Assembly: GCA_003165795.1 (NCBI GenBank)
Contig: PMWW01000150.1
Location: 24,060 to 57,445, forward strand
From: Acidobacteriaceae bacterium
GTDB taxonomy: Bacteria > Acidobacteriota > Terriglobia > Terriglobales > Acidobacteriaceae
Reading direction: 5' to 3'
DNA length: 33,386 bases
Made by a program: the position numbers and the translations under genes. Below the pieces are notes generated by a model, which searched no databases, was not told the origin of the DNA, and saw only the letters and a list, made by a program, of their open reading frames with translations. Positions 14,580 to 33,025 of the stretch are shown here, one piece after another. Within the stretch, counting starts at the first letter, position 1. Every line of letters begins with the position of its first letter.

Positions 14580-14627
14580 GCAATTGCGGGTAGTGGCGCA
14601 GTTTGGTTTCGGATTCGAAACCAGAGA

Positions 14628-14765
14628 TAGAGCGGGCCTTCAGGCTCGCGTCAAGCGCCCCCGGCAGCCAGAAGCCGGAGGGGCGGCAGAGCTATTGCCG
14701 GTGTGTCGTGTCTCGGCACTCACATCCCCCGGACGGTATTAACGCGGTCCTGAAGGCCCGCTCTA
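14628..14765. repeat. 138-bp MITE-like element with perfect 17-bp inverted ends
   Basis: The ends 14628-14644 (TAGAGCGGGCCTTCAGG) and 14749-14765 are exact reverse complements. Inside is a second GC-rich hairpin (14656-14665 with 14674-14685). No coding capacity is seen. The element abuts the truncated transposase end. A related sequence (TAGAGCGG, CTTCAG, CGCGTCA in the same order) occurs after superoxide dismutase near 32266, so it probably belongs to a dispersed family. Confidence 0.75.
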
Positions 14766-14870
14766 CCTGAATTCTCCCTGCATTAGAAATGCGCAAATTG
14801 CACCACTACCCCCTGTTTCCTAGTCAGCGACTCCTCGTGGTATAAAAATTTCTAGCACGCCATCCCGAAT

Positions 14871-15783: not shown

Positions 15784-15817
15784 CCCAGTAAACTTCGCAT
15801 CTGTGCTTAACAATCCG

Positions 15818-17299
15818 ATGCTTACGCCCGACCTCAAAAGCTTCCTGCAGCTCAGCCGTGAGGCCACGCTCATACCGGTGGCAAGAACTTTGAGCGCCGA
15901 CTTGTTGACTCCGGTGGGAGCATTTCTCAGTATCGCTGCCCGGCAGAAGTATGCCTTCCTGCTGGAATCGGTTGAGGGCGGCGAGAAGATTGGGCGCTAT
16001 ACCTTCCTGGGCGCTCAACCACGGACCGTGATCACCGCGCGGGGAAAAGATTTGACACTCCGCGAGGGCTCGTCGGTGCGTTGCTGCCAGGGCAGCGTCA
16101 TGGACTTGCTGCGAGAGCACTTGCGGCAACATCGTCCCGCTATCTTGCCGGACCTGCCGCCGTTTACTTCCGGTTGCGTGGGGTATTTCGCCTATGACAT
16201 GGTTCGTCAATTCGAGCGGCTGCCGAATCGTACGAAGGATGATGTAGGGCTTCCAGATTGCGTTTTCACCTTCTACGACCGGCTGCTGGCTTTCGATCAT
16301 TTGCGCCATCAGCTTCACATTATCGCCGCCGCTGACGTGCGCTCGGAGTCGCCGCGCAAGGCCTATGACCGCGCTCTCGCCGACATCGCTGTAATCGAAG
16401 CAAAACTTCAGCGCGGGGTTCGCGCGCAGCACGTTCACTGGTCCGACAGCGGCAAGAAGAAGTCCATCAAGATCCATCACAGCACTTCGCACGACAAGTT
16501 TCTGCAAAGCGTGCGCAAGGCCAAGGAATACATTGCGGCCGGCGATGTCTTTCAGGTTGTGCTGTCGCAGAGGCTGGACTTCAAGCCCCCAGCCGAGCCG
16601 TTCCAAATCTATCGCGCGCTGCGCACGGTGAATCCGTCGCCGTACATGTATTTTCTGAAGCTCGATGACATTCACGTGGTGGGAGCGTCGCCGGAGATGC
16701 TGGTGCGCGTGTCGGGACGGAAGCTGGAATACCGGCCGATCGCCGGCACCCGCAAACGCGGCGCTGATGCGGCCCAGGACGAGCGCCTTACCGAGGAGTT
16801 GCGCACTGACGAAAAGGAACGCGCCGAGCACGTGATGCTGGTCGACCTGGGACGGAACGACTTGGGCCGCGTCAGCGAATATGGCAGCGTGAAGGTTCGC
16901 GACCTGATGTACGTGGAGAAGTATTCCCATGTCATGCACCTGGTCTCGGCGCTGGAAGGGCAGTTGCGCGGCGATCTTGACGCGCTGGCCGCGCTAGCGG
17001 CGTGCTTTCCCGCTGGCACGCTGAGCGGCGCGCCCAAAGTGCGGGCCATGGAGATCATCGAGGAGCTGGAGCCGGTGCGCCGCGGAGTTTATGGCGGCTC
17101 GGTGCTGTATGCGGATTATGCGGGCAATCTGGATTCCTGTATTGCCATCCGGACGATGGTAGTGCATGGCGATCGCGCCTACGTGCAGGCCGGTGCGGGC
17201 ATCGTAGCCGACTCCGATCCCGAAAGCGAGTATCAGGAGTGCATGAATAAGGCGAGTGCAGTGTTGCGGGCTTGCGAGAAGGCAGGGGCTAGGGATTAG
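15818..17299 (+). CDS. trpE: Anthranilate synthase component I
   Basis: This is a 493-residue protein from the ATG at 15818 (a GTG at 15803 would add five residues). It converts chorismate to anthranilate using ammonia supplied by TrpG. The N-terminal domain has FLLESVEGGEKIGRYTFLGAQP, where the LLES motif is part of the tryptophan feedback site. The chorismate-binding domain has VFQVVLSQRL, PSPYMYFL, GASPEMLVRV, RPIAGTRKRG, DEKERAEHVMLVDLGRNDLGRV, FPAGTLSGAPKVRAMEII and the C-terminal GAGIVADSDPESEY, all conserved. The length is normal. trpG would be expected next; instead a four-helix-bundle gene flanked by inverted repeats sits between them. The tract after the stop starts with AGGGGCTAGGGATTAGGGGC-like repeats. 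Confidence 0.96.
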   Translation: MLTPDLKSFLQLSREATLIPVARTLSADLLTPVGAFLSIAARQKYAFLLESVEGGEKIGRYTFLGAQPRTVITARGKDLTLREGSSVRCCQGSVMDLLREHLRQHRPAILPDLPPFTSGCVGYFAYDMVRQFERLPNRTKDDVGLPDCVFTFYDRLLAFDHLRHQLHIIAAADVRSESPRKAYDRALADIAVIEAKLQRGVRAQHVHWSDSGKKKSIKIHHSTSHDKFLQSVRKAKEYIAAGDVFQVVLSQRLDFKPPAEPFQIYRALRTVNPSPYMYFLKLDDIHVVGASPEMLVRVSGRKLEYRPIAGTRKRGADAAQDERLTEELRTDEKERAEHVMLVDLGRNDLGRVSEYGSVKVRDLMYVEKYSHVMHLVSALEGQLRGDLDALAALAACFPAGTLSGAPKVRAMEIIEELEPVRRGVYGGSVLYADYAGNLDSCIAIRTMVVHGDRAYVQAGAGIVADSDPESEYQECMNKASAVLRACEKAGARD

Positions 17300-17317
17300 G
17301 GGCTAGGGGCAGTAGAT

Positions 17318-17347
17318 AGTTTCAAGTTTCAAGTTTCGAGTTTCGAG
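17318..17347 (+). repeat. GTTTCRAG tract, left arm (trpE/trpG gap)
   Basis: Four units of GTTTCAAG/GTTTCGAG begin 19 bases after the trpE stop. Bases 17325-17340 are an exact reverse complement of 17763-17778, so the four-helix-bundle gene lies between inverted arms. Confidence 0.8.
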
Positions 17348-17354
17348 CAAGAAC

Positions 17355-17711
17355 GTGTCGCACTCCTACAAAGACTTGATCGCGTGGCGGAAGTCAATGA
17401 TGTTGGTGAAGTGTATCTACATGCAAACGCGCGGATTTCCTAAGGAGGAAGTTTATGGATTAGCGGGACAACTGAGGCGCGCTGCCGTATCGTTCCCGAG
17501 CAACATCGCGGAAGGACAAGGGCGATTGTCGAAGAAGGAGTTCAAGCATTTCCTCTCGTTGGCCAGAGGCTCGTTGCTCGAAGTTGAAACACAGATTTTG
17601 ATCGCTGCGGATTTGAACTACCTGAGCGAGCAGAATGCTCATGACCTGGAAATTCAAACGCAAGAGGTGCTGCGGATTCTTAACGCATTAATGGATTCAC
17701 TCGCGTGCTAA
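17355..17711 (+). CDS. Four-helix-bundle protein (S23 / 23S rRNA intervening-sequence family)
   Basis: This is a 118-residue protein from a GTG at 17355. SYKDLIAWRKSMMLVKCIY, GLAGQLRRAAVSFPSNIAEGQGR and FLSLARGSLLEVETQILIAADL are the diagnostic blocks of the S23/IVS family, which is also related to the Avd accessory protein of diversity-generating retroelements. Family members were first found inside insertions in bacterial 23S rRNA genes and form pentameric barrels; their job is unknown. Here the gene separates trpE from trpG and sits between inverted GTTTCRAG arms ending eight bases before its start and beginning about 50 bases after its stop. No ribosome binding site is clear. It reads as an inserted cassette, not as a trp function. 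Confidence 0.88.
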   Translation: MSHSYKDLIAWRKSMMLVKCIYMQTRGFPKEEVYGLAGQLRRAAVSFPSNIAEGQGRLSKKEFKHFLSLARGSLLEVETQILIAADLNYLSEQNAHDLEIQTQEVLRILNALMDSLAC

Positions 17712-17762
17712 GAACCGCTTGGTCGTTTTTTAGCGGTGCGAGACCAGGTCCCGCTTTCTATA

Positions 17763-17779
17763 CTCGAAACTTGAAACTG
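17763..17779 (+). repeat. GTTTCRAG tract, right arm ending just before trpG
   Basis: CTCGAAACTTGAAACTG ends four bases before the trpG ATG. Bases 17763-17778 pair exactly with 17325-17340. Confidence 0.8.
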
Positions 17780-17783
17780 CCCT

Positions 17784-18359
17784 ATGGTTTTCGTCCTCGA
17801 CAACTACGACTCCTTCACCTATAACCTGGTCCAATATTTTGGCGAGTTGGAACAGGAGGTGGTGGTGCGCCGCAACGATCAGACTACCGTCGCCGAGATC
17901 GAAGCGATGCATCCCGAGCGAATCGTGATCTCTCCTGGCCCATGTACCCCACACGAAGCTGGGATCAGCATTGACGTGATCCGGCACTTCGCCGGACGGG
18001 TTCCGCTGTTGGGGGTGTGCCTCGGACATCAGGCGATTGGAGCAGCGTTCGGCGGGAAGGTAATTCGCGCCGCCAATCTGATGCACGGCAAGACAAGTTC
18101 AGTGGAGCACGACGGCAAGACCATCTTTCGTGGCATTCCGTCGCCCATGATTGCCACGCGCTACCATTCGCTGATTGTTGAAGAGAAGAGTCTTCCCGAC
18201 GAATTGGAGATTTCCGCAACCTGTCATGACCGCGACGGCGAGCGCGTGATCATGGGGCTGCGGCACCGCAAGTTCGCCGTCGAGGGCGTGCAGTTTCATC
18301 CCGAGAGCGTGCTGACAGAACAAGGAAGACAGATCGTGCGCAACTTCATGGAACTGTGA
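17784..18359 (+). CDS. trpG: Anthranilate synthase component II (glutamine amidotransferase)
   Basis: This is a 191-residue class I glutamine amidotransferase that hydrolyses glutamine and passes ammonia to TrpE. It opens with [34 protein letters not shown] lies near residue 50. The catalytic Cys is C79 ([12 protein letters not shown]), and the His and Glu are in [13 protein letters not shown] near residues 171-174. The length is normal. In many bacteria the same protein also serves p-aminobenzoate synthase as PabA; with trpE so close, the tryptophan role is primary. The ATG lies four bases after a GAAACTG repeat end, with no ribosome binding site. It is not coupled to trpE because of the inserted gene. 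Confidence 0.95.
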
Positions 18360-18410
18360 TCCCGGTGGTCTCGACAGGCGTCAGCGGCGGCCTTTATAGT
18401 GGCCACGGGA

Positions 18411-18440
18411 AGTTTCGAGTTTCCAGTTTCGAGTTTCCAG
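18411..18440 (+). repeat. GTTTCGAG/GTTTCCAG tract, left arm (trpG/ABC gap)
   Basis: Four units begin 52 bases after the trpG stop. The first ten bases are an exact reverse complement of 18551-18560, and 18433-18440 pairs with 18524-18531. Confidence 0.72.
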
Positions 18441-18523
18441 TAACGGCGCTCGTCGTGAAACTCCAGGCTCGCAGCTCGAAGATGAGCTTGTATTGCTCGA
18501 AGCTCGTGGCTCGAAGCTCGGAG

Positions 18524-18561
18524 CTGGAAACTTGAAACTCGACACTCGACACTCGAAACTG
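18524..18561 (+). repeat. Right arm ending just before the ABC ATPase start
   Basis: CTGGAAAC, CTTGAAACTC and ACTCGAC units end with CGAAACTG five bases before the ATPase ATG. Between the two arms are several GCTCGAAG units (about 18473-18515). Confidence 0.72.
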
Positions 18562-18566
18562 ACCAC

Positions 18567-19466
18567 ATGTCCAACGCCGTAGAACTGCGGGGAATTCGTA
18601 AGACCTACGACCACTTCGTCGCGGTCGATCAGCTTTCCATCAACATTCGCCAAGGTAGCGTCTACGGCTTGCTCGGCCCCAACGGCGCGGGCAAGACTTC
18701 GTCTATCCGCATGATGATCGGCATCACCATGCCCGACGCCGGAGAAGTCTGGCTGTTCGGCGAAAAGTTTCATCGCCAGCAACTGCATCGCGTGGGTTAT
18801 CTGCCCGAGGAACGCGGTCTGTACAAGCGAATGAAGGTCATCGATCATCTGGTCTTCCTCGGCCGCTTACACAATCTCTCTGAGCACGAAGCGCGAGAAC
18901 GCTCGCTGGTGTGGTGCGAACGATTACAACTCAGCGAATGGACCCAGAAGAAAGTGGAAGAGCTCTCCAAAGGAATGCAGCAGAAGATCCAGTTCATTGC
19001 CGCACTCCTGCATGATCCTGATTTGATTATTATGGACGAACCGTTTGCCGGGCTCGATCCGGCCAACGCCGTCATGTTGAAGGACGTTTTGATCGAGTTG
19101 AAGAAATCCGGCAAGACCATTCTGTTTTCCACCCATCGCATGGACCAGGTGGAGCGGCTGTGCGACGCGATCTGCCTGGTCGATCACGGCCGCGCGGTGC
19201 TGGAGGGCGACCTAGTCAAGATCAAGGCCAGCTATGGCAAGAACCACGTGCAGATGCAGTACGAAGGCGATCCGCAACTTGAGGGTTGCGACTTGGTGGA
19301 GTCGTTCAACAACTACGGGAACTACGTGGAGGTGCGATTGAAGCCGGGCGCCGATGCCCAACAGTTGCTGCGTCTGGCCTCAGACCGCGCCCGCATCAGC
19401 CGGTTCGAGCTGGTCGAGCCTTCGCTGGAAGAAATCTTCATCGACCAGGTGGGAAAAAATGCATAA
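18567..19466 (+). CDS. ABC transporter ATP-binding protein (NatA-like)
   Basis: This is a 299-residue protein. It has Walker A GPNGAGKTSS (about 37-46), a Q-loop region, the signature LSKGMQQK (about 137), Walker B LIIMDEPFAGLDP and the switch His in FSTHRMDQ. After the nucleotide-binding domain (about 1-230) comes a C-terminal domain of the DUF4162 type (RFELVEPSLEEIFIDQVG), common in exporters of the NatA group. The next gene overlaps it by eight bases and encodes the permease. Together they would form an exporter; the NatAB relatives move sodium or drugs, but the substrate here is not known. The ATG follows a GAAACTG repeat end by five bases. Confidence 0.94.
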   Translation: MSNAVELRGIRKTYDHFVAVDQLSINIRQGSVYGLLGPNGAGKTSSIRMMIGITMPDAGEVWLFGEKFHRQQLHRVGYLPEERGLYKRMKVIDHLVFLGRLHNLSEHEARERSLVWCERLQLSEWTQKKVEELSKGMQQKIQFIAALLHDPDLIIMDEPFAGLDPANAVMLKDVLIELKKSGKTILFSTHRMDQVERLCDAICLVDHGRAVLEGDLVKIKASYGKNHVQMQYEGDPQLEGCDLVESFNNYGNYVEVRLKPGADAQQLLRLASDRARISRFELVEPSLEEIFIDQVGKNA

Positions 19467-20742
19467 CGTGTGGACGCTGATGCAACGCGAATATCTGGAG
19501 CGCGTCCGCTCGCGGTCGTTCGTGATCTTTACCCTGCTGATGCCGGCGTTCATGGCGGGCAGCGTGCTCATTCCCGCCAAGCTTGCGGAGATGAACTCGG
19601 GCGGCGTGCGTCACTTGGTTCTGGTGGTCAACAATCCCCAGATCGCGACGGCGGTGATGCAGGAGTTGGGCCCGTCCAAGCCACAGGCCAGCACGTCGCC
19701 GGATGAGGAAGCTCTGGGACCGACGACCTATGTGGTCCAGGTGGACACGACGCCTACCGAAGCCGAGCGCGACTTGCTGCGCCAGCAGGTGAGCGACGGC
19801 AAAATCACCGGCTTTCTCTGGCTGACCGATGACGCGCTGGCCAAGCATAGCGTCACGTATAGCACCAAGGAAGCTGCCGACTTTGGCCAGTCCGTCGAAC
19901 TGCGCAATGCGGTGAGGACGGCGATCACCAAACAACATCTGACGGCCAAGGGCATGAGCGGACCCGAGGTCGAGTCGCTGCTGACGCCGATCGACCTCAA
20001 GACGGTACGCATTGAAAAGGGCAGGGAAGGCGCCAGCGGAACCGCCGTTTTTGTAACCGCAATCGGCATGGTGATGCTGCTCTATGTCGTCGTCATGATC
20101 TATGGCGTATCGGTTATGCGCTCGGTCATCGAGGAGAAAAGCACGCGCATTCTGGAAGTGCTGCTATCGTCGGTCACGTCGAAAGAGCTGCTCGCGGGGA
20201 AAATCCTGGGGGTCGGCGCCGTGGGGCTGACGCAGATTCTGATCTGGGTGACATGCGCAGTGCTGTTCTCGGTTCCCGGACTCATTGCGAGCAAGTCGTT
20301 TCTGGGCGAAGTTCACATTCCGATCGCGGGGATGGTCGCGTTCGCCATCTTCTTCCTGCTCGGCTATTTGCTTTACAGCTCCATGTACGCCGCCATCGGT
20401 TCCATGGTGACCACCGACCAGGAAGCGCAACAGATGCAGTGGCCGGCCATGATCCCCATCATTCTAGCGGTTTTCATGATGAATCCGGTGCTGCAGCATC
20501 CCAACTCGCCGCTGTCGTTCTGGCTTTCGATGGTTCCGTTCTTCGCGCCTATCCTCATGCTGGTACGCGTGCTCATCGAGCAACCGCCGCTTTGGCAATT
20601 GGCGCTCTGCGTGGTGATCATGCTGGGAACCATCTATGGACTGCTTGCGCTCTCGTCGCGCATCTATCGCGTGGGCATTCTGATGTACGGCAAGCGGCCT
20701 ACTCTGGCCGAGTTGCGCCGCTGGCTGCGTTACGCCGGGTAG
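19459..20742 (+). CDS. ABC-2 type permease (NatB-like)
   Basis: This is a 427-residue protein from the ATG at 19459 (MHNVWTLMQREYLERVRSRSF), the usual N-terminus of this permease type. The ATPase stop lies at 19464-19466, so the genes overlap. One helix (about 20-40) is followed by a large extracytoplasmic domain (about 45-200), then five or more helices, with the conserved YGVSVMRSVIEEKSTRILEVLLSSV near residue 215 and AGKILGVGAVGLTQ. This layout matches NatB/YhaP-type ABC-2 permeases. It would pair with the ATPase before it. The substrate is not predictable. Confidence 0.93.
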   Translation: MHNVWTLMQREYLERVRSRSFVIFTLLMPAFMAGSVLIPAKLAEMNSGGVRHLVLVVNNPQIATAVMQELGPSKPQASTSPDEEALGPTTYVVQVDTTPTEAERDLLRQQVSDGKITGFLWLTDDALAKHSVTYSTKEAADFGQSVELRNAVRTAITKQHLTAKGMSGPEVESLLTPIDLKTVRIEKGREGASGTAVFVTAIGMVMLLYVVVMIYGVSVMRSVIEEKSTRILEVLLSSVTSKELLAGKILGVGAVGLTQILIWVTCAVLFSVPGLIASKSFLGEVHIPIAGMVAFAIFFLLGYLLYSSMYAAIGSMVTTDQEAQQMQWPAMIPIILAVFMMNPVLQHPNSPLSFWLSMVPFFAPILMLVRVLIEQPPLWQLALCVVIMLGTIYGLLALSSRIYRVGILMYGKRPTLAELRRWLRYAG

Positions 20743-20834
20743 GCGCCTATGTCGATGCGAGGTCGCAGTTACAGCCAGTGTGGACGAATGTGGGGAAGGT
20801 CGGATCTAAACATCATTTAGACTAGGTAGTCGCA

Positions 20835-21218
20835 ATGAAACATGAACCATTGGGCGAGAGGCTTCATTCATTAGTCTTAGAAGACAACTGTAGACAGGTA
20901 GTGCTTGCAACTGAGCACGATTTAGAGGGATTTGAACCCGAATGTGATGATTGTCATGGTAATGCTAAGAAGTGGGTTGATCTACATCCTCGACACAAAA
21001 TCGTTCGCGGTTTTCTCGTCGTGAATGACTGCATCTTCAATAAGCACTCCGTCATTGATACCGGCTCAATGCTGCTGGATATAACGCCTCACAACCCAAA
21101 CGAATCCCGGAACCTGCTCAGGTTCGTTGAGTTTGACGGGGGCAACCGCGCTCTCTTTGAAGCCATGCCAAACGTGATAATCTGGCAACCAAGCTTTAGG
21201 TCGGACAAGAATTTGTGA
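20835..21218 (+). CDS. Hypothetical protein of unknown family
   Basis: This is a 127-residue protein with no recognised family. It is Asp/Asn/His-rich and contains a CDDCHGN motif near residue 37-43, which could bind a metal, and a C-terminal half rich in hydrophobic strands (RFVEFDGGNRALFEAMPNVIIWQP). No signal peptide or membrane helix is seen. The gene and its flanks are clearly more AT-rich than the ABC and VWA genes on either side, which suggests recent gain. ATG at 20835 has no strong ribosome binding site. The coding call rests on the codon pattern and the absence of competing frames. Confidence 0.6.
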   Translation: MKHEPLGERLHSLVLEDNCRQVVLATEHDLEGFEPECDDCHGNAKKWVDLHPRHKIVRGFLVVNDCIFNKHSVIDTGSMLLDITPHNPNESRNLLRFVEFDGGNRALFEAMPNVIIWQPSFRSDKNL

Positions 21219-21311
21219 GCGGTAAATCAACCAAGTCCGCCCCAGCGATGGCGTAAGGCCGTTTGAAACACGGTACTCGCAAGTACAGGCGATGCAATCG
21301 GAGCCAGCAGC

Positions 21312-21317
21312 TATAAT
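21312..21317 (+). promoter_or_regulatory. Perfect -10 hexamer 11 bases before the VWA gene
   Basis: TATAAT ends at 21317 and the ATG is at 21329. A transcript would start near 21324, leaving a leader of about five bases with no ribosome binding site. No -35 match is seen. Confidence 0.4.
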
Positions 21318-21328
21318 TAAAGATCCAC

Positions 21329-22525
21329 ATGAATTACTGGTTGATCCTGGTTTTGATGGCGGCGTTACCGTGGGGGCCGGTCGCCCAAGACTCGCCACCA
21401 CAGCAACTTCCTACCGCGCCTTCAGCGACCAAATATCCTCCAGCACCGCCTACGCCGCCCGCTTCGTCAACCTCAACTGGATCGGAGCAGAGCGTCGCAC
21501 CGGCGCAAACTCCTGCTCCGCCGAGCGCGAATAGCGGTGCATCAAGCAATGGCAGCAGCCCGGCGGCCTCGCCGTCAGGTAACGCGCAGACCGGTAATGC
21601 TTCTTCGCCACGGGATATTGGAGTGGGATCAGCGCCGGCGACCGTAACTCCGGGGGGATCGGCCGCTGGCGGGGTTGACGACACGCTCACCGTCATCCGC
21701 AAGCGCGTGGACGAGGTCAATGTGGTCTTCACCGTCACCGACAAGCGCGACCACTTCGTGAAGGACTTGACGCAGAATGATTTCCGCGTGTTCGATGACA
21801 GCAAGCCGGCGCTGAGCATTCAATCGTTCAACCGGCAGACCAACCTGCCGTTGCGCGTGGGCCTGCTGATCGACGCCAGCAACTCGGTGCGCGACCGCTT
21901 CAAGTTCGAGCAGGAGGCGGCGATTGAGTTCTTGAACCAGATTATCCGGCCCCGGTTCGACAAGGCATTCGTCATCGGCTTCGATACCACGCCCGAGGTG
22001 ACGCAGGACTTCAGCGACGATGCCGAGGCGCTCTCCAAAGGCGTGCGCATGTTGCGCGCGGGCGGCGGCACCGCCATGTATGACGCCATCTACTTCGCCT
22101 GCCGCGACAAGCTGATGCAGGTGGATAAAGGTCAGATCGCCACCCGGCGGGCCATCATTCTGCTAAGCGATGGTGAGGACAATCAGAGCCGAGTGTCGCG
22201 CGACGAGGCGATCGAGATGGCGCAACGCGCCGAGGTCATCATCTACGCCATCTCGACCAACACCAGCGGGATCAAGCTGCGCGGCGACAAGGTGATGGAA
22301 CACTTCGCCGAAGAAACCGGTGGCAAGGCGTTCTTTCCCTTCAAGATCGAAGACGTATCCAATGCGTTCCTGGAAATCTCTGACGAGCTGCGCAGCCAGT
22401 ACGCCATCTCGTACAAGCCGGCCGATTTTGTGGCCGACGGCAAGTATCGCAAGATAGAAATCCTGGCCGACAATAAGAAGTACCACGTGCGGGCCAGGAA
22501 GGGATATTACGCGCCCAGGCAGTAA
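21329..22525 (+). CDS. VWA-domain exported protein (acidobacterial VWFA-related)
   Basis: This is a 398-residue protein. A short signal peptide (MNYWLILVLMAALPWGPVAQ) is followed by a 90-residue Pro/Ala/Ser/Gly-rich linker, then VNVVFTVTDKRDHFVKDLTQNDFRVFDD, the family's conserved entry strand, and the VWA domain from about residue 165. The metal-binding motif DASNS (D-x-S-x-S) is present, followed by GGGTAMYDAIYFA and ILLSDGEDNQSR. This matches the VWFA-related domain expanded in Acidobacteriota. VWA domains bind other proteins through a metal ion; the partner here is unknown and it likely acts outside the inner membrane. The small membrane protein gene follows within an inverted-repeat bracket. 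Confidence 0.9.
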   Translation: MNYWLILVLMAALPWGPVAQDSPPQQLPTAPSATKYPPAPPTPPASSTSTGSEQSVAPAQTPAPPSANSGASSNGSSPAASPSGNAQTGNASSPRDIGVGSAPATVTPGGSAAGGVDDTLTVIRKRVDEVNVVFTVTDKRDHFVKDLTQNDFRVFDDSKPALSIQSFNRQTNLPLRVGLLIDASNSVRDRFKFEQEAAIEFLNQIIRPRFDKAFVIGFDTTPEVTQDFSDDAEALSKGVRMLRAGGGTAMYDAIYFACRDKLMQVDKGQIATRRAIILLSDGEDNQSRVSRDEAIEMAQRAEVIIYAISTNTSGIKLRGDKVMEHFAEETGGKAFFPFKIEDVSNAFLEISDELRSQYAISYKPADFVADGKYRKIEILADNKKYHVRARKGYYAPRQ

Positions 22526-22530
22526 AAGCA

Positions 22531-22554
22531 AGTTTCAAGTTTCGAGTTTCAAGT
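22531..22554 (+). repeat. GTTTCRAG tract, left arm (VWA/mutL gap)
   Basis: This 24-base arm begins five bases after the VWA stop and is an exact reverse complement of 22830-22853. Confidence 0.85.
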
Positions 22555-22581
22555 GTCAGGTTGAGGTCGGGTGGAGGGGGC

Positions 22582-22800
22582 ATGGTTCTCCGTATCGCCT
22601 TTAATACGATTTGTGGAGCAGGTTTCCTCGCTGCCGTATTATTTCTCGTCCGCCCCGATTGGCTCCGACGCTACGAACGTCATCTCCGACCGCACGCATT
22701 GGAGTTTGAGCACGCCAGGCGTAACCCGCAGCAAGTCATCGCGCTGGTAATCATCGCGGGCGTCGCCTTATCCATGCTGATTGGTTCGCTTTCTCATTAA
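22582..22800 (+). CDS. Small two-helix membrane protein
   Basis: This is a 72-residue protein from the ATG at 22582 with GGAGGGGG just upstream. Two hydrophobic helices (about residues 6-23 and 50-67) flank a basic, amphipathic middle (RPDWLRRYERHLRPHALEFEHARRNPQQ). No family was recognised. It lies alone between perfect 24-bp inverted arms (22531-22554 and 22830-22853). It could be a small membrane regulator or a passenger of the repeat bracket. The good ribosome binding site and membrane-type composition support coding. Confidence 0.62.
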   Translation: MVLRIAFNTICGAGFLAAVLFLVRPDWLRRYERHLRPHALEFEHARRNPQQVIALVIIAGVALSMLIGSLSH

Positions 22801-22829
22801 CCTTTCGATATCTCGCTTCGCCACTTGAA

Positions 22830-22854
22830 ACTTGAAACTCGAAACTTGAAACTG
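22830..22854 (+). repeat. Right arm ending just before mutL
   Basis: Exact 24-bp reverse complement of 22531-22554 (bases 22830-22853). The tract starts earlier, at 22823, and ends in GAAACTG five bases before the mutL ATG. Confidence 0.85.
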
Positions 22855-22859
22855 TCTCC

Positions 22860-24836
22860 ATGGGCCGCATCCACGTTCTCTCGGAAAATGTCGCCAACAA
22901 GATCGCCGCCGGCGAAGTGGTGGAGCGCCCTGCCTCGGTAGTGAAGGAGTTGCTGGAGAACTCGCTCGACGCGGGGGCGCAGCGTATCCGAGTGAACGTC
23001 GAAGCCGGCGGAAAAAAACTGATCCAAGTGACCGACGACGGCTGCGGCATGGTGCGCGACGACGCCATGCTCGCCTTCGAGCGCCATGCCACCTCGAAGA
23101 TTCGCAACACCGATGACTTGCTGAACATTGCAACTCTGGGCTTTCGCGGAGAGGCGCTGCCCTCGATCGCATCCGTCAGCCGACTGCGGTTGGAGACGCG
23201 CGCCGCCGAAGAGCCCGCCGGAACAGTGATCGAGATCGCCGGCGGAAAGCTGCTCACGGTGGAAGAAGCCGGGCTGCCGCTGGGCACCTGCATCACCATT
23301 CGCGATCTGTTCTTCAACATTCCCGCGCGGCGCAAGTTTCTAAAAGCTGAGTCGACGGAGCTGTCGCACATTGCTTCGCTGGTGACGCACTACGCGCTGG
23401 CCCATCCTGAAATGCATTGGGAGCTGCACTCGGCGACCAATGCCATGCTAGTGGCGCCGCCGGTCGCCGGTCATTCGGAGCGGATCTACCAGGTATTCGG
23501 CAAGGAGACGCTCGACCAGTTAATTCCGCTGAGCGCGCTGCTGCCGTTGGAGCGCGTGGGACTGCCGCAGCCTCCGCCGTGGCGACGGAGCGAACTGGAA
23601 GACCCGCTCGAAGAGCCGGTGAAAGGCGAGATCAAGCTGCACGGCTTTGTCTCGCGGCCGGAGATACAGAAGCTCAATCGCAACTCCATTTTCATCTTCG
23701 TGAATGGCCGGCTGATTCGCGATCGCCTGGTGCAGCACGCTCTGACTGAAGCCTATCGCAACATCATTCCGCCAACCGTATACCCGGTTGTGCTGCTCTT
23801 CTTCGACATGCCGTTCACCGAAGTCGATGTGAACGTACACCCGTCGAAGACCGAGGTTCGCTTTCGTCAGCCGTCGATCTTGCACGACTTCATTCGCGAC
23901 TCGGTGCGCGCGGTGCTGATGAAGTCGCGGCCCGTGCCGGCATTCATGACCGAGATCCACGCCGGCGCAACCGCGTCGCCTTCGCTGACCCCGGGCGCGC
24001 GCGACTTCGGTAGCAGCGAGTTGCAGGTGATGGAAGCGGATGCGGCATTCGCGCTGCGGGCGCGGGAGATCCCACCGTTCACCGCGTCATTGCAATTTGA
24101 AGGCAGCGGATTCGCGGTTGAAGGAAACGCTGCGGTTCCGGTAGCGCGGTTTGGACCGCAGACATTCGGAGGTCCGGGGGCGGCAATGCTTCCCTCGGGC
24201 GGAAACGGTTGCTCGCCGGAGCTGGCCGACGAAGACGCACCCGTCGGACTGGAGTCGCTAGCAAGCCTCAAGCCAGTGGGGCAGATTCGCGAGTCGTTCA
24301 TCCTGGCAATCAATTCGCAGGGGCTGTGGATTATCGATCAGCACGTGGCGCACGAACGCATCCTGTTCGAGAAGATTAGCAAGCAGCGGCTGGCGGAGTC
24401 GCCGGAGAAGCAGCAACTGTTGATGCCGCTGATCGTGGAACTGACGCCGGGACAGATGGCCGTTTTCGCCGAAATTTCCGACGAACTGAATCGCAATGGC
24501 TTCGAGGTGGAACCTTTCGGTTCGCGCACCATCGCGGTGAAGACAACGGCAGCAGGGGTCACGCCGGGTGACGTTGAGCATCTGCTGCACGAAATCCTGG
24601 AGCAGTTCGAGCGCGAGGAGCAGTCGCTGAATCTGGACAGGATCCGCACTAACATTGCCGCCAGCATCGCCTGCCACGCCGCTATTAAAGTCAACATGCC
24701 GCTGGAGCAGAACAAAATGGAGTGGCTGCTGAGCGAGCTGGCCAAAACCGATTGTCCCATGAGCTGTCCGCATGGCCGGCCGGTGGTTCTGCGGTATTCT
24801 GTAAGGGACATTCAGCGGGCGTTCAAACGCATTTAG
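22860..24836 (+). CDS. mutL: DNA mismatch repair protein MutL
   Basis: This is a 658-residue protein. The N-terminal GHKL ATPase (about 1-330) has NKIAAGEVVERPASVVKELLENSLDAG, DDGCGM, RHATSKI and GFRGEALPSIASV, with the catalytic Glu in KELLEN, and HPSKTEVRF near residue 328. A variable linker (about 360-460) precedes the C-terminal dimerisation domain. The endonuclease motif appears as DQHVAHERILFE (about 493), with Val where most have Ala, plus ACHAAIK and the zinc-site motif CPHGRP (about 636). It is therefore probably a nicking-type MutL, unlike the E. coli protein, used with MutS and not MutH. The ATG at 22860 has no ribosome binding site and follows a repeat end. Confidence 0.95.
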   Translation: MGRIHVLSENVANKIAAGEVVERPASVVKELLENSLDAGAQRIRVNVEAGGKKLIQVTDDGCGMVRDDAMLAFERHATSKIRNTDDLLNIATLGFRGEALPSIASVSRLRLETRAAEEPAGTVIEIAGGKLLTVEEAGLPLGTCITIRDLFFNIPARRKFLKAESTELSHIASLVTHYALAHPEMHWELHSATNAMLVAPPVAGHSERIYQVFGKETLDQLIPLSALLPLERVGLPQPPPWRRSELEDPLEEPVKGEIKLHGFVSRPEIQKLNRNSIFIFVNGRLIRDRLVQHALTEAYRNIIPPTVYPVVLLFFDMPFTEVDVNVHPSKTEVRFRQPSILHDFIRDSVRAVLMKSRPVPAFMTEIHAGATASPSLTPGARDFGSSELQVMEADAAFALRAREIPPFTASLQFEGSGFAVEGNAAVPVARFGPQTFGGPGAAMLPSGGNGCSPELADEDAPVGLESLASLKPVGQIRESFILAINSQGLWIIDQHVAHERILFEKISKQRLAESPEKQQLLMPLIVELTPGQMAVFAEISDELNRNGFEVEPFGSRTIAVKTTAAGVTPGDVEHLLHEILEQFEREEQSLNLDRIRTNIAASIACHAAIKVNMPLEQNKMEWLLSELAKTDCPMSCPHGRPVVLRYSVRDIQRAFKRI

Positions 24837-26883: not shown

Positions 26884-26934
26884 CTATCCACTAGTCACTA
26901 TCCACTAGTCACTATCCACTAGTCACTATCCACT
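26884..26934. repeat. Tandem repeat, 14-bp unit, 3.6 copies
   Basis: Three exact copies of CTATCCACTAGTCA and a partial CTATCCACT lie between the DUF4097 stop and the operon terminator. The CACTAGTCACTA core is nearly self-complementary in part. Confidence 0.9.
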
Positions 26935-26938
26935 GCCT

Positions 26939-28399
26939 TCATCCCTTGCCGATCTTGATGTCGCCGGTGTCGGTGTTGATTTGCAGTTTGCTGATACCGT
27001 TGCCTACGGTGCCGGTGGCGTGGGAAGTGCCGTTGCTCTCATCGACCTTCACGGCGCCGAAATCCGAAGTAATGTCGCCCTTACGGGTGCCGGCCGTGAT
27101 CTGGAAACCAGGATTCGAGGGCAGCGTCAGCGTGATGTCGCCGTGGGTGGTAGTTACATCCACCCTATCCGACGGCGGCTTGCTGGCGAGCGTCAAGGCC
27201 ACGTCGCCGTGTTGGGTGCTCACCGTCATTTTGCCAGGCTTGCCGGCGGTGGTGACTTCCACGTTGCCATTGTTGGATTCCACCTGCAGATCGCCGGAGA
27301 TGTCTTCCAGGTGTATATTCTTGGAGTTGGTGACCACGCGGCTAGGCCCGCTTAAATCGCTGCCCCGCACTTCGTCGCTGGCAATCTCGATGTCGCCGGG
27401 CACGGAAGCGATCTCCATGTCGGAGCGTGAGGTTTTAAAGGTTACGGTCTTGGCGATCTTGCTGAGACGGATGTCGTCGTAGAAGTCGCCGTTCAGATGC
27501 ACCGCGCCGGCAACTTCATCGATGGTGACGTTGTCGAGGCGGCCATCTACATCCAGATCGCCGGCAATCTTGGAGGCGCGCAGCGAACCTTTTTCCAGGC
27601 CCACCTTAGCCGCACCGGCGATGTCGTTGAGTTCGACGTCGCCATGTTGCAGAGCGATCTTGACGTCGGCCTTGCGCTCGGTCACGGTCACGTCGCCACG
27701 CTTGCCGGCCACGTCGAGCGCGGCATCGGCAGGCACATAGATATCCAAGTCCGCCTGCACGCCATGTTCACCGGCGCCATCGGTGTTGGCGTTCACTAAT
27801 ACGGAGTTACCGGTTACCGTGATTTGCGGCTTGGTCTGGCCGTTATATTGGTCGGCATCTTTCTGGTTTTGCGCATACAGCTTCTTGTGGACCACGACGC
27901 GCAACGTGTTGTCGTCGGACGGGGAAATGTTCAGCGTCCCACGGTCGCACACTACGCGCAGGTTGCCATGGGCGGGAAACGACTGCTGCAGGGTGTCTTC
28001 GAAGGTGAATGCGGTTCCGAAGATGCCGCCCAGATCGTCGTCCATCTGGATCTGGTTACGCACCCCGCTCCAATCGACATCGGAACTGTAATGAGCAGAG
28101 ACCCCCAGCCCAACCAGCAGCACCAGCAAGACGATGCCGCCGGCGCCGAGATGACGGGTGCGATATCCCATGCGCTGCGCCGAGGCGTGTTCAATCAGCG
28201 CGATCACGCCCCACAGGATCAGCAGCACCGGCCACCAATGTCCGAACCAGTGCCAGATGGGAAAGCGAAAGCCGAAGTTCCGCAGAAAGAACAGCAGGCC
28301 GATCACGATCAGAATCAGTGGCCCGGCGATCGAGCGGTGTTGACGACATACCGGCGGCGGCGCAACCGGAGGAGGAGGATACAGATTTGGGCTAGCCAT
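26939..28399 (-). CDS. DUF4097 beta-repeat protein with N-terminal membrane helices
   Basis: This is a 486-residue protein. After a Pro-rich start, two helices of the LiaI/LiaF-like type (about 24-68, with GPLILIVIGLLFFLRNFGFRFP) and a third (about 84-102) anchor it. From about residue 130 on it is a DUF4097-type beta solenoid with repeats ending in GDI, GDV or GNV (for example KRGDVTV, QHGDVEL, SNNGNVEV, THGDITL, RKGDITS, DTGDIKI). Such proteins are often near sigma/anti-sigma genes and are thought to sense or line the cell envelope. The start overlaps the preceding gene by eight bases and has GGAGGT upstream. It is the last gene of the operon. The function is inferred only from context. Confidence 0.88.
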   Translation of the reverse strand: MASPNLYPPPPVAPPPVCRQHRSIAGPLILIVIGLLFFLRNFGFRFPIWHWFGHWWPVLLILWGVIALIEHASAQRMGYRTRHLGAGGIVLLVLLVGLGVSAHYSSDVDWSGVRNQIQMDDDLGGIFGTAFTFEDTLQQSFPAHGNLRVVCDRGTLNISPSDDNTLRVVVHKKLYAQNQKDADQYNGQTKPQITVTGNSVLVNANTDGAGEHGVQADLDIYVPADAALDVAGKRGDVTVTERKADVKIALQHGDVELNDIAGAAKVGLEKGSLRASKIAGDLDVDGRLDNVTIDEVAGAVHLNGDFYDDIRLSKIAKTVTFKTSRSDMEIASVPGDIEIASDEVRGSDLSGPSRVVTNSKNIHLEDISGDLQVESNNGNVEVTTAGKPGKMTVSTQHGDVALTLASKPPSDRVDVTTTHGDITLTLPSNPGFQITAGTRKGDITSDFGAVKVDESNGTSHATGTVGNGISKLQINTDTGDIKIGKG

Positions 28400-31193: not shown

Positions 31194-31356
31194 GATGAAT
31201 TCGGGCCCGGAAGGGCGTAGCTTCGTCCCACTCCGTTCGACCCGATTTCGCCTGAATTGTAGCAGGGGCGGAAGGGGCACACCTTCAGGAGCGCGGTAGC
31301 AGCGGTTTGCCTGTTAGGGGTCATCCCAAGCGTAGCGAAGCGGAGTCGAGAATTGC

Positions 31357-31465
31357 TTTGTGTCAGGGCACGGCTTCAGCCGCTGAGGAAAATCGGAGCA
31401 GGGGCTAAAGCCCTGAGCTTTTTTGCATTCCGTTCGGCACGAGTAAACTCGTGCCCTGACACAAA
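31357..31465. repeat. Nested palindromic repeat element
   Basis: The outer arms 31357-31372 (TTTGTGTCAGGGCACG) and 31450-31465 are exact reverse complements. Inside are GGGCTAAAGCCC (31402-31413), followed by TTTTTT, and a perfect 8-bp hairpin GGCACGAG-TAAA-CTCGTGCC (31436-31455). A further CCCTGACACAAA copy lies at 31481-31492. Confidence 0.8.
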
Positions 31466-31550
31466 CCAGTTTCAGCACGACCCTGACACAAATCAAGTTC
31501 AACAATGCACTCGAAACTCTCTTCACGACTCGAAACTGACTTCACCGCTC

Positions 31551-32259: not shown

Positions 32260-32367
32260 AACGGGTAGAGCGGTGCTTCAGCGCCGCGTCAGAAGCTTCA
32301 CTTTTGACACTCCGAGGCGACTTTAGTCGTCAGTGGGTGGCCCACCCAACCATTCCAATGAGGGCGC

Positions 32368-32397
32368 CCCATCCAAGCCGGGTTTGCTTGGGTGGGG
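32368..32397. repeat. REP-like hairpin, left copy (30-bp inverted repeat)
   Basis: This 30-base sequence is an exact reverse complement of 32978-33007. It folds alone as an 11-bp stem (one G-T pair) around a 7-base loop, which is the shape of REP sequences recognised by RAYT proteins. Confidence 0.85.
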
Positions 32398-32441
32398 ATT
32401 TCCGTCGCAGGTCACAGACTCGCTTCGGCAGGGCGTTGTAG

Positions 32442-33025
32442 GCTACTCTCGTACCTTGGGAACTGAAGCGGTATCAACAAGCTCGCGACCTCCACTTCGT
32501 CACCTTCAGTTGTTACCGGCGTCAGCGCTTGCTGGAGTCGGCCCATGCCAAGCGCCTGTTCGAGGGCGGGTTGGGACAAACGCGCCGGCAGTACGACTTC
32601 TTTGTAACCGGCTATGTCGTCATGCCGGAGCATGTGCATCTGCTGGTGAGCGAGCCACAGCGCAATACTCTGGCGACGGCGGTGCAGGCGTTGAAGCAAT
32701 CGGTGGCTCGCAAGTTGATTGGCGAGAGAAAGCATTTCTGGCAGGCCCACTATTACTCTTTAATGTACGGACGGCGAACAAGCGAATTGAGAAGTTGCGC
32801 TACATCCATCGCAACCCGGTGAAGCGAGGGCCGGTGGAGAGACCCGAGGACTGGGAGTGGAGCAGCTTTCGCCACTATGCCAGCGGAGTGGAGGGTGTGG
32901 TGGAGATCGAATCCGAGTGGACGGGACGTAAGGGAGAGCGGATGGGAATGCCATTGCGAGTGAAGGTGTTGGAACGGCCCCACCCAAGCAAACCCGGCTT
33001 GGATGGGACACCCACACCGTGCTAG
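32442..33025 (+). pseudogene. REP-associated tyrosine transposase (RAYT), frameshifted
   Basis: The N-terminal part (frame from 32442) reads WELKRYQQARDLHFVTFSCYRRQRLLE, FVTGYVVMPEHVHLLVSEP and ALKQSVARKLIGERKHFWQAHYYS, the Y1-transposase (HUH) family, with the metal-binding HVH in MPEHVHLL. Near 32757-32761 the homology shifts into another frame, FNVRTANKRIEKLRYIHRNPVKRGPV, where YIHRNP should hold the catalytic Tyr. A one-base loss in CTCTTT explains it. No start codon lies in frame before 32529, so the N-terminal start also appears lost. Inverted 30-bp hairpins flank the gene, and the second frame runs through the right copy. RAYTs cut single-stranded REP hairpins; this copy is probably dead. 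Confidence 0.85.
32978..33007. repeat. REP-like hairpin, right copy (30-bp inverted repeat)
   Basis: Exact reverse complement of 32368-32397. A second, outer pair (GGGTGGCCCA at 32335-32344 and TGGGCCACCC at 33028-33037) marks the probable outer ends of the element. Confidence 0.85.

Follow-up and report, generated by a model that had tools for sequence, protein, structure and literature searches.

Mirrored heptamer arrays around genes for 23S rRNA-intervening sequence proteins are probably the ends of a small mobile DNA element

The window analysed here is a stretch of 33,386 nucleotides (nt) from the genome of an Acidobacteriaceae bacterium (GenBank assembly GCA_003165795.1, contig PMWW01000150.1, positions 24,060 to 57,445 of the forward strand), in which the trpE/trpG, trpG/ABC and VWA/mutL gaps, the latter two named after an ATP-binding cassette (ABC) transporter ATPase gene and a gene for a von Willebrand factor A (VWA)-domain protein, are each flanked by inverted arms of tandem 7-nt AGTTTCV units. 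An earlier note on this DNA had described inverted arms at these three gaps, and proposed that they might be a mobile-cassette boundary, an mRNA processing or stability signal, or a translation-control device. Inverted-match and tandem-repeat analysis confirmed the arms, and the trpE/trpG bracket encloses an intact gene for a 23S rRNA-intervening sequence protein (IVP; PF05635, 23S_rRNA_IVP). We argue that these mirrored repeats probably mark the termini of a small mobile DNA element centred on IVP.

The trpE/trpG bracket follows trpE (anthranilate synthase I; 15803-17299, + strand; stop codon TAG at 17297-17299; PF00425 and PF04715), whose stop codon is spanned by a short run of the AG-core heptamer AGGGGCT (17284-17310, +; period 7 in Tandem Repeats Finder, TRF). 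Its left arm of four AGTTTCR units (17318-17345, +; the same array as L042:1577-1604) is followed by the IVP gene (17358-17711, +; 117 amino acids (aa) as read from a putative start; PF05635, E 1.2e-36) and by the right arm (17763-17778, -), which is, as previously claimed, a perfect inverted match to 17325-17340 over 16 bp, and ends 5 nt ahead of trpG (17784-18359, +; PF00117). In the trpG/ABC bracket, tandem-repeat and inverted-match analysis delimits a left arm of AGTTTCG and AGTTTCC units (18411-18441, +), and a right arm in which GCTCGAA units grade into ACTTGAA (18495-18560, -; TRF period 7, 9 copies; inverted matches); these arms reach 80-87% complementarity over 31-35 nt, and the ABC transporter ATPase gene lies downstream (18567-19466, +; PF00005). 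The third bracket separates the VWA-domain protein gene (21329-22525, +; PF13519) from mutL (22860-24836, +; PF08676 and PF01119), which begins 6 nt past the right arm. Its arms (22531-22561, +; 22823-22853, -) match at 94% over 31 nt and include perfect reverse complements over 24 bp, exactly where they had been reported (22531-22554 with 22830-22853). Between them lies a 72-aa open reading frame (ORF; 22582-22800, +) that was read from the sequence only, looks hydrophobic by inspection and has no Pfam match.

The window contains 21 copies of the octamer GTTTCRAG, which the earlier note took as the unit, where 2.33 would be expected; none of 100 shuffles reached that count, and 17 of the 21 fall in the three bracketed gaps. 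The enriched tracts are thus borne out, but the repeat is more naturally described by the 7-mer AGTTTCV, GTTTCRAG being only an overlapping reading of it. Distances to neighbouring codons needed revision: the right arms end 5, 6 and 6 nt before the ATGs at 17784, 18567 and 22860 rather than 4-5 nt, and the left arms begin 18 (trpE/trpG), 51 (trpG/ABC) and 5 nt (VWA/mutL) after a stop codon, close to the 5-52 nt given before but with a slightly lower maximum. Predicted RNA folds close all three brackets with the long stems that had been anticipated (z of -1.4 at trpE/trpG, -4.1 at VWA/mutL and -5.5 at trpG/ABC). Plain identity with repetitive extragenic palindromic (REP) elements or clustered regularly interspaced short palindromic repeats (CRISPR), which the earlier note had also discounted, was rejected on unit structure.

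All seven IVP matches in the host genome (G000) lie, by eye, between inverted arms of ~7-nt units, each locus with a unit of its own: GGATAGG-type, CAGCAGT, AGCAGCT, TTGGCAC, AGTTTCR, TTCGCTC and CAGCCGT. GTTTCRAG represents a single local version of a general 7-nt unit with an AG core, and a search for that string alone would therefore miss most of the system. Scanning GTDB contigs with an IVP alignment returned at least 573 relatives among at least 585 pattern hits, and the best 80 matches, which were kept, include Acidobacteria, Bacteroidales, Planctomycetes, Anaerolineae, Clostridia, Verrucomicrobia, Spirochaetaceae, Pseudanabaena and others. With one locus dropped for a short flank, 115 IVP loci were available (7 from the host, 29 from relatives and 79 from GTDB), at each of which the 250 nt preceding the IVP gene were aligned with the 250 nt following it, taken as reverse complement. 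An inverted-repeat score of at least 24 was obtained at 107 of the 115 loci (7/7, 27/29 and 73/79, respectively), as compared with 4.6% of 1,665 pseudo-genes positioned at other points of those loci, a control added next to one based on swapped pairs; at a score of at least 30, the figures are 99 of 115 and 1.1%. None of six 23S rRNA motifs was present in any of 116 IVP loci.

Periodicity of the flanks is equally distinctive: a lag-7 signal (at least 20/28) marks 64.8% of 230 IVP flanks and 2.3% of 2,062 control pieces, and lag 14 marks 37.8% of the IVP flanks, with the remaining lags from 3 to 15 at most at 2.6%. In flanks with clear arrays the unit logo is A.83, G.96, T.70 upstream (n=91) and A.74, C.95, T.77 downstream (n=94); AGT prevails over ACT by 66 to 6 upstream (19 ties), and ACT over AGT by 71 to 5 downstream (18 ties). 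Upstream the unit reads AG(T)NNYY, downstream it is the complement, and a nearly fixed AG points inward at both ends. Units per arm, counted at 111 loci with wrong-orientation chains tallied alongside, have modes of 4-5 upstream and 5 downstream. Seventeen IVP loci from named complete plasmids, mostly cyanobacterial, served as a held-out set (a match was present in 17 of 27 records); 16 of these loci score at least 24, and 19 of 34 flanks have lag 7, versus 6 of 136 tests at lags 5, 6, 8 and 9. On plasmids, IVP genes separate, for example, two ribonucleotide reductase genes, cas6 from cas4, and cmr2 from a cmr3-family gene; IVP genes within cas loci have been noted previously (PMC3936711; sources given by PMC number are cited here from excerpts of their text). 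Neither IVP nor a 127-aa ORF at 20835-21218 had a match in the defence library, and phages yielded no match with one IVP query. Within the accessible portion of the open-licence literature, we found no published link between IVP and heptamer arms in general.

Arrays of the AGTTTCV unit were also sought throughout the host genome (two units, at most one mismatch, arrays joined within 45 nt), yielding 86 unit matches in 41 arrays; the reversed control pattern gave zero matches at the same tolerance. There are 12 neighbouring array pairs within 600 nt, 11 of them +/- and one +/+, with no -/+ or -/- pair. Arrays in mnmG (L034:8372-10690, 772 aa as read) lie in frame within the coding sequence, where they make up two bracketed inserts and one single-sided insert, and the mnmG of relatives contains different inserts at the same loop sites, several with heptamer-encoded ends (by eye). 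In 21 family members with a frame reaching the conserved start, mnmG encodes 647-770 aa; the other two family copies read 507 aa (ended by a contig end) and 659 aa (start motif unmatched), and those of seven members outside the family 617-662 aa, two without the start motif. Not every copy is open throughout, because the last part of mnmG in G002 matches as a separate stretch with an internal stop. More generally, mnmG in this family has variable in-frame inserts at two to three loop sites, species-specific among those aligned and some of them interspersed-repeat-like. In G055, from another family of the class, long perfect AGTTTCG arrays of more than 10 units occur at C4:78886-78991 and C7:105882-105973.

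Comparison of orthologous gaps, as the earlier note had suggested, revealed, within one genus, filled, reduced and empty states at trpE/trpG and presence or absence of the arms and IVP at trpG/ABC. An intact IVP gene occupies trpE/trpG in G000, G001, G007 and G008; it is broken in G002, a single array remains in G005, the gap is empty (7 nt) in G004, and G003 has unrelated armless sequence. The trpE/trpG site of G006 falls outside the comparison, as its contig begins inside trpG. At trpG/ABC, G006 has an IVP element that is framed by AGTTTCV arms at either end, has a broken IVP frame and is followed by the ABC gene; the arms in G000 lack IVP, G003 shows arrays of the right type alone, arms are absent from G002 and G004, and a different gene follows trpG, without arms, in G001, G005, G007 and G008. 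As the G006 gap holds an IVP element, the IVP-less trpG/ABC bracket of the window is readable as a remnant. Arrays of the VWA/mutL unit also precede mutL, at a greater distance from the ATG, in G001, G002, G005, G007 and G008; none was found there in G003. Ratios of nonsynonymous to synonymous substitution (dN/dS) of 0.05-0.10 in the six comparisons among the four intact trpE/trpG orthologues indicate purifying selection on IVP at this one locus.

The arms at a further site differ between species in sequence and match within each. At pdxS/pdxT, seven of nine congeners could be resolved, and all seven have matching arms, with units that are CGCTNTT-like in G000, G002, G005 and G006, AGCTCTT in G007, AGCYATC in G008 and AGTTGTC in G004; the close pairs G002/G005 and G000/G006 have units in common. 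Left-right scores average 38.3 within species, compared with 19.8 left-right, 25.4 left-left and 21.3 right-right across species, which we read as concerted evolution, in a small sample of seven related species. The IVP motif is present in two of the seven resolved gaps. Across 81 genomes, IVP counts correlate with matches to AGT heptamers (rho 0.70; 0.57 given Y1_Tnp), although p-values overstate independence because the genomes are related; the backward-read pattern is a poor control here, since heptamers such as AGTGACN match it, and only the between-genome correlation was used. G077, a congener of the array-bearing G057 discussed below, has 4 IVP matches and 251 array matches.

Taken together, these results suggest that the brackets are the ends of elements of the IVP/intervening sequence (IVS) family and of their IVP-less remnants, a reading to which we assign a probability of roughly three in four. 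Such an element would comprise an IVP gene between two inverted arms of about 4-5 tandem 7-nt units, of the form 5'-AG(T)NNYY-...-RRNN(A)CT-3', and would sit mostly in tight intercistronic gaps, which would bring its arms close to the stop and start codons of the adjacent genes. Those 23S rRNA IVSs that have an IVP/S23 ORF would be the known rRNA-inserted members of the family, and the trpG/ABC, VWA/mutL and in-frame mnmG inserts would be remnants or non-autonomous relatives. IVP itself is a four-helix protein of 110-130 aa; each of its solved relatives, 2gsc and 2rld, contains five chains, and Lin et al. (2006) speak of five four-helix bundles in their title. We infer that the element moves, or moved, as DNA, and that the AG cores repeated at either end are what a ring of IVP recognises; it is our conjecture that binding of the repeats and movement of the element are both the work of IVP. 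The arms would be kept matched by slippage together with arm-to-arm copying through hairpin template switching.

Several observations weigh against this reading. The genome-wide search that the earlier note had proposed, for paired inverted tracts, gave 11 +/- pairs among 12 close ones, but 18 of the 41 AGTTTCV arrays in the host genome have no partner within 600 nt at up to one mismatch, contrary to a strict bracket rule. No target-site duplication or defined junction was found, and movement was not seen; between full and empty trpE/trpG sites, which are strongly diverged, no target-site duplication was apparent by eye. The interiors of IVP-less brackets are unrelated (by eye), unlike simple internal deletions, and the IVP motif is present in none of 13 mutL loci examined. 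Synonymous divergence (dS) between the host IVP and the other trpE/trpG orthologues is 1.3-1.9, near saturation. Among the main set, which represents the best-scoring IVP matches rather than a random sample and is partly orthologous (L205 and L217 carry identical arms), 8 of 115 loci fall below a score of 24, and only 45 beat all 120 swaps in the swapped-pair test, a weak result from a test that is too strict because unrelated loci share similar AG units in the same orientation. Lag 7 marks just those 19 of 34 held-out flanks, the held-out controls are unclean (40 of the 272 swapped pairs, and 4 of the 34 outer pieces, also score 24 or more), and the held-out Gemmatirosa and Picosynechococcus arms look 8-nt periodic. 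Finally, and against a one-to-one rule, array matches turn up in 3 of the 22 genomes that lack IVP, among them G057, where AGT-array matches number 178 and PF05635 has no match, and 12 of 59 genomes with IVP have no strict-form array match.

Some of these points would suit passive repeats, for which slippage would make the 7-nt arrays, hairpin template switching would match the arms, and IVP genes would be mere passengers. Unpaired arrays and IVP-less brackets exist, G057 carries arrays without IVP, and the arms vary between species and match within each; in one survey, moreover, heptamers were the most frequent class of long simple repeat in most genomes, and a connection with the polymerase has been proposed (Mrazek et al., 2007, via PMC4679880). 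Passive repetition does not explain, however, why arms frame IVP in distant phyla (at 107 of 115 main and 16 of 17 held-out loci), why there is an AG core with inward orientation, or why empty sites occur, and it is unlikely as an account of the brackets. It may be right for how the arms stay matched.

The genomic setting of the arms bears on whether they act in RNA. Of 96 eligible loci, the 82 that have an ORF no more than 200 nt away on each side were retained for the tabulation of stop and start distances advised in the earlier note, and the arms lie a median of 5-6 nt from the flanking ORF, a distance that is exact for stops and rough for starts because ORF starts were taken as the earliest possible. 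Arms that pair in mRNA could control processing or translational coupling, through RNase III cutting or stop-start juxtaposition, and this would accord with the predicted folds that close all three window brackets with a long stem, with the excision of rRNA IVSs by RNase III at such a stem (PMC4990558), and with the 52 of 82 IVP elements that lie between two genes co-directional with IVP. The other 30, however, lie between convergent (14) or divergent (8) genes or are antisense to both (8), and the mnmG bracket is read through in frame. Arm mismatches compatible with G.U pairing number 114 on the transcript strand and 115 on the other (107 loci, 442 mismatches), with 36 loci leaning one way, 36 the other and 35 tied. 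As mismatches are equal on both strands, this points to a DNA-level, strand-symmetric cause, and selection on an RNA stem was not supported by this test of strand asymmetry. The lack of G.U bias and the use of convergent and divergent gaps together speak against an RNA stem or translation device, which we consider improbable. At sequence level, therefore, the mRNA processing or stability and translation-control proposals are both unsupported, and the mobile-cassette boundary is the best supported of the three original suggestions, given the intact bracketed IVP, its presence and absence among congeners, and the same layout across Bacteria.

It is highly improbable that the brackets are miniature inverted-repeat transposable elements (MITEs) or REP-like non-autonomous elements moved in trans by a Y1/REP-associated tyrosine transposase (RAYT) or a reverse transcriptase, with IVP as an accessory like Avd: IVP does resemble Avd (PMC10053308; the bAvd match is below cut-off), the window has a Y1_Tnp match at 32490-32783, and Y1_Tnp counts correlate with arrays (rho 0.50), but they explain little once IVP is accounted for (partial 0.09), reverse transcriptase does not correlate significantly (rho 0.19), and G037, G053 and G067 have 2-4 IVP genes each and match neither Y1_Tnp nor RVT_1. 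At least two IVP genes without a Y1_Tnp match occur in G008, G037, G053, G067 and G077, drafts in which a missed gene is possible. Neither Y1/RAYT nor reverse transcriptase was supported as a required partner.

IVP-family elements and their remnants might, more tentatively, belong to a bacteria-wide minimal mobile element with rewritable ends. An IVP pentamer would read one AG core per subunit, join the ends and promote insertion into tight gaps; slippage and hairpin copying would keep the ends matched; and intergenic arrays (TAACTGA, short tandemly repeated repetitive (STRR) sequences and others) would be largely its footprints, a possibility that we regard as doubtful in this full form. The ring would read about five 7-nt units per end, in a TRAP-like manner, on single-stranded DNA or RNA. 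Both the reading of repeats by TRAP and template switching at quasi-palindromes are known. IVP (also annotated 'four helix bundle protein' or 'S23') has a wide distribution and a function described as uncharacterised, and tying it to a simple, searchable DNA signature makes its role a testable question. The rRNA intervening sequences would gain a context outside rRNA, and heptamer repeats known from bacterial genomes a possible source, and arms that are unlike between species yet matched within each would be a natural case of palindrome maintenance.

Other repeats in the window deserve mention. At 26884-26934, just past the 3' end of a gene at 26939-28399 (-), 3.6 perfect copies of a 14-mer amount to two minus-strand AG-core heptamers (AGTGGAT/AGTGACT type). 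Nested inverted repeats of 18 and 30 nt with an interspersed-repeat look occupy 14588-14811, and 31351-31545 contains an inverted pair of CGTGCCCTGACACAA and a 19-nt tandem containing ACTCGAAACT. The RAYT-like Y1_Tnp match at 32490-32783 is surrounded by a 39-nt inverted repeat (92%) with copies 580 nt apart (32359-33016), and a similar hairpin, CCCATCCAAGC...GCTTGGATGGGG, follows mnmG (L034:10732-10761).

Among known systems, MITEs and REP elements or bacterial interspersed mosaic elements (REP-BIME) resemble the brackets in their terminal inverted repeats, many IVP-less copies and intergenic position, and, as for MITEs and transposons, presence and absence vary at orthologous sites (trpE/trpG and trpG/ABC). 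AGTTTCV copies share ends within the genome, but ends vary by locus, other loci using other units; no target duplication was found, and with some genomes lacking a Y1_Tnp match, no dependence on a Y1/RAYT transposase was evident. Avd of diversity-generating retroelements is a reported structural relative of IVP (PMC10053308); these systems differ in that no reverse transcriptase was found among the window genes scanned, and RVT_1 matches are missing in 24 of 43 genomes with at least two IVP genes. Rickettsia palindromic elements (RPE) are likewise short palindromic in-frame inserts in conserved proteins (PMC10969869), a description that the mnmG inserts fit as a likeness rather than as homology; compared by description only, the excerpt of that source mentions neither heptamer ends nor IVP. 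The brackets share tandem 7-nt units with long simple heptanucleotide repeats (LSSRs). Cyanobacterial STRRs are similarly intergenic 7-nt tandems, the STRR1 unit being CCCCAGT. So are the TAACTGA arrays of Beggiatoaceae, Cyanobacteria and Bacteroidetes (MacGregor, 2015), which in one Beggiatoaceae genome lie mostly just before start codons, and whose unit, by description, fits the right-arm form NNNNACT; they differ in being described as direct repeats with one inverted case, and that paper nowhere uses the words S23, four helix, intervening or IVS (PMC4679880).

With the 23S rRNA IVSs of Leptospira, Coxiella and bacteria of the candidate phyla radiation (CPR), the brackets share a gene family, terminal inverted repeats and sporadic distribution. 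The rRNA IVSs have been portrayed as selfish elements that carry an S23p ORF between terminal inverted repeats and are excised by RNase III (PMC4990558), and IVP occurs in rRNA insertions of CPR bacteria (PMC11270868). The window brackets similarly have terminal inverted repeats predicted to form stems, and encode an IVP/S23 protein at trpE/trpG, but not at trpG/ABC or VWA/mutL in the host genome; they differ in lying between protein genes, their hosts being intercistronic gaps and protein-coding loops rather than rRNA. In Coxiella, tandem GACAGAT heptamers lie upstream of the S23p ORF within an IVS that has a 28-bp terminal stem (PMC4990558), and GACAGAT, when rotated, is AGATGAC, an AG-core unit, such that both systems place AG-core tandem heptamers by the ORF. 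Coxiella S23p is reportedly probably not made (PMC4990558), whereas the IVP of trpE/trpG is under purifying selection.

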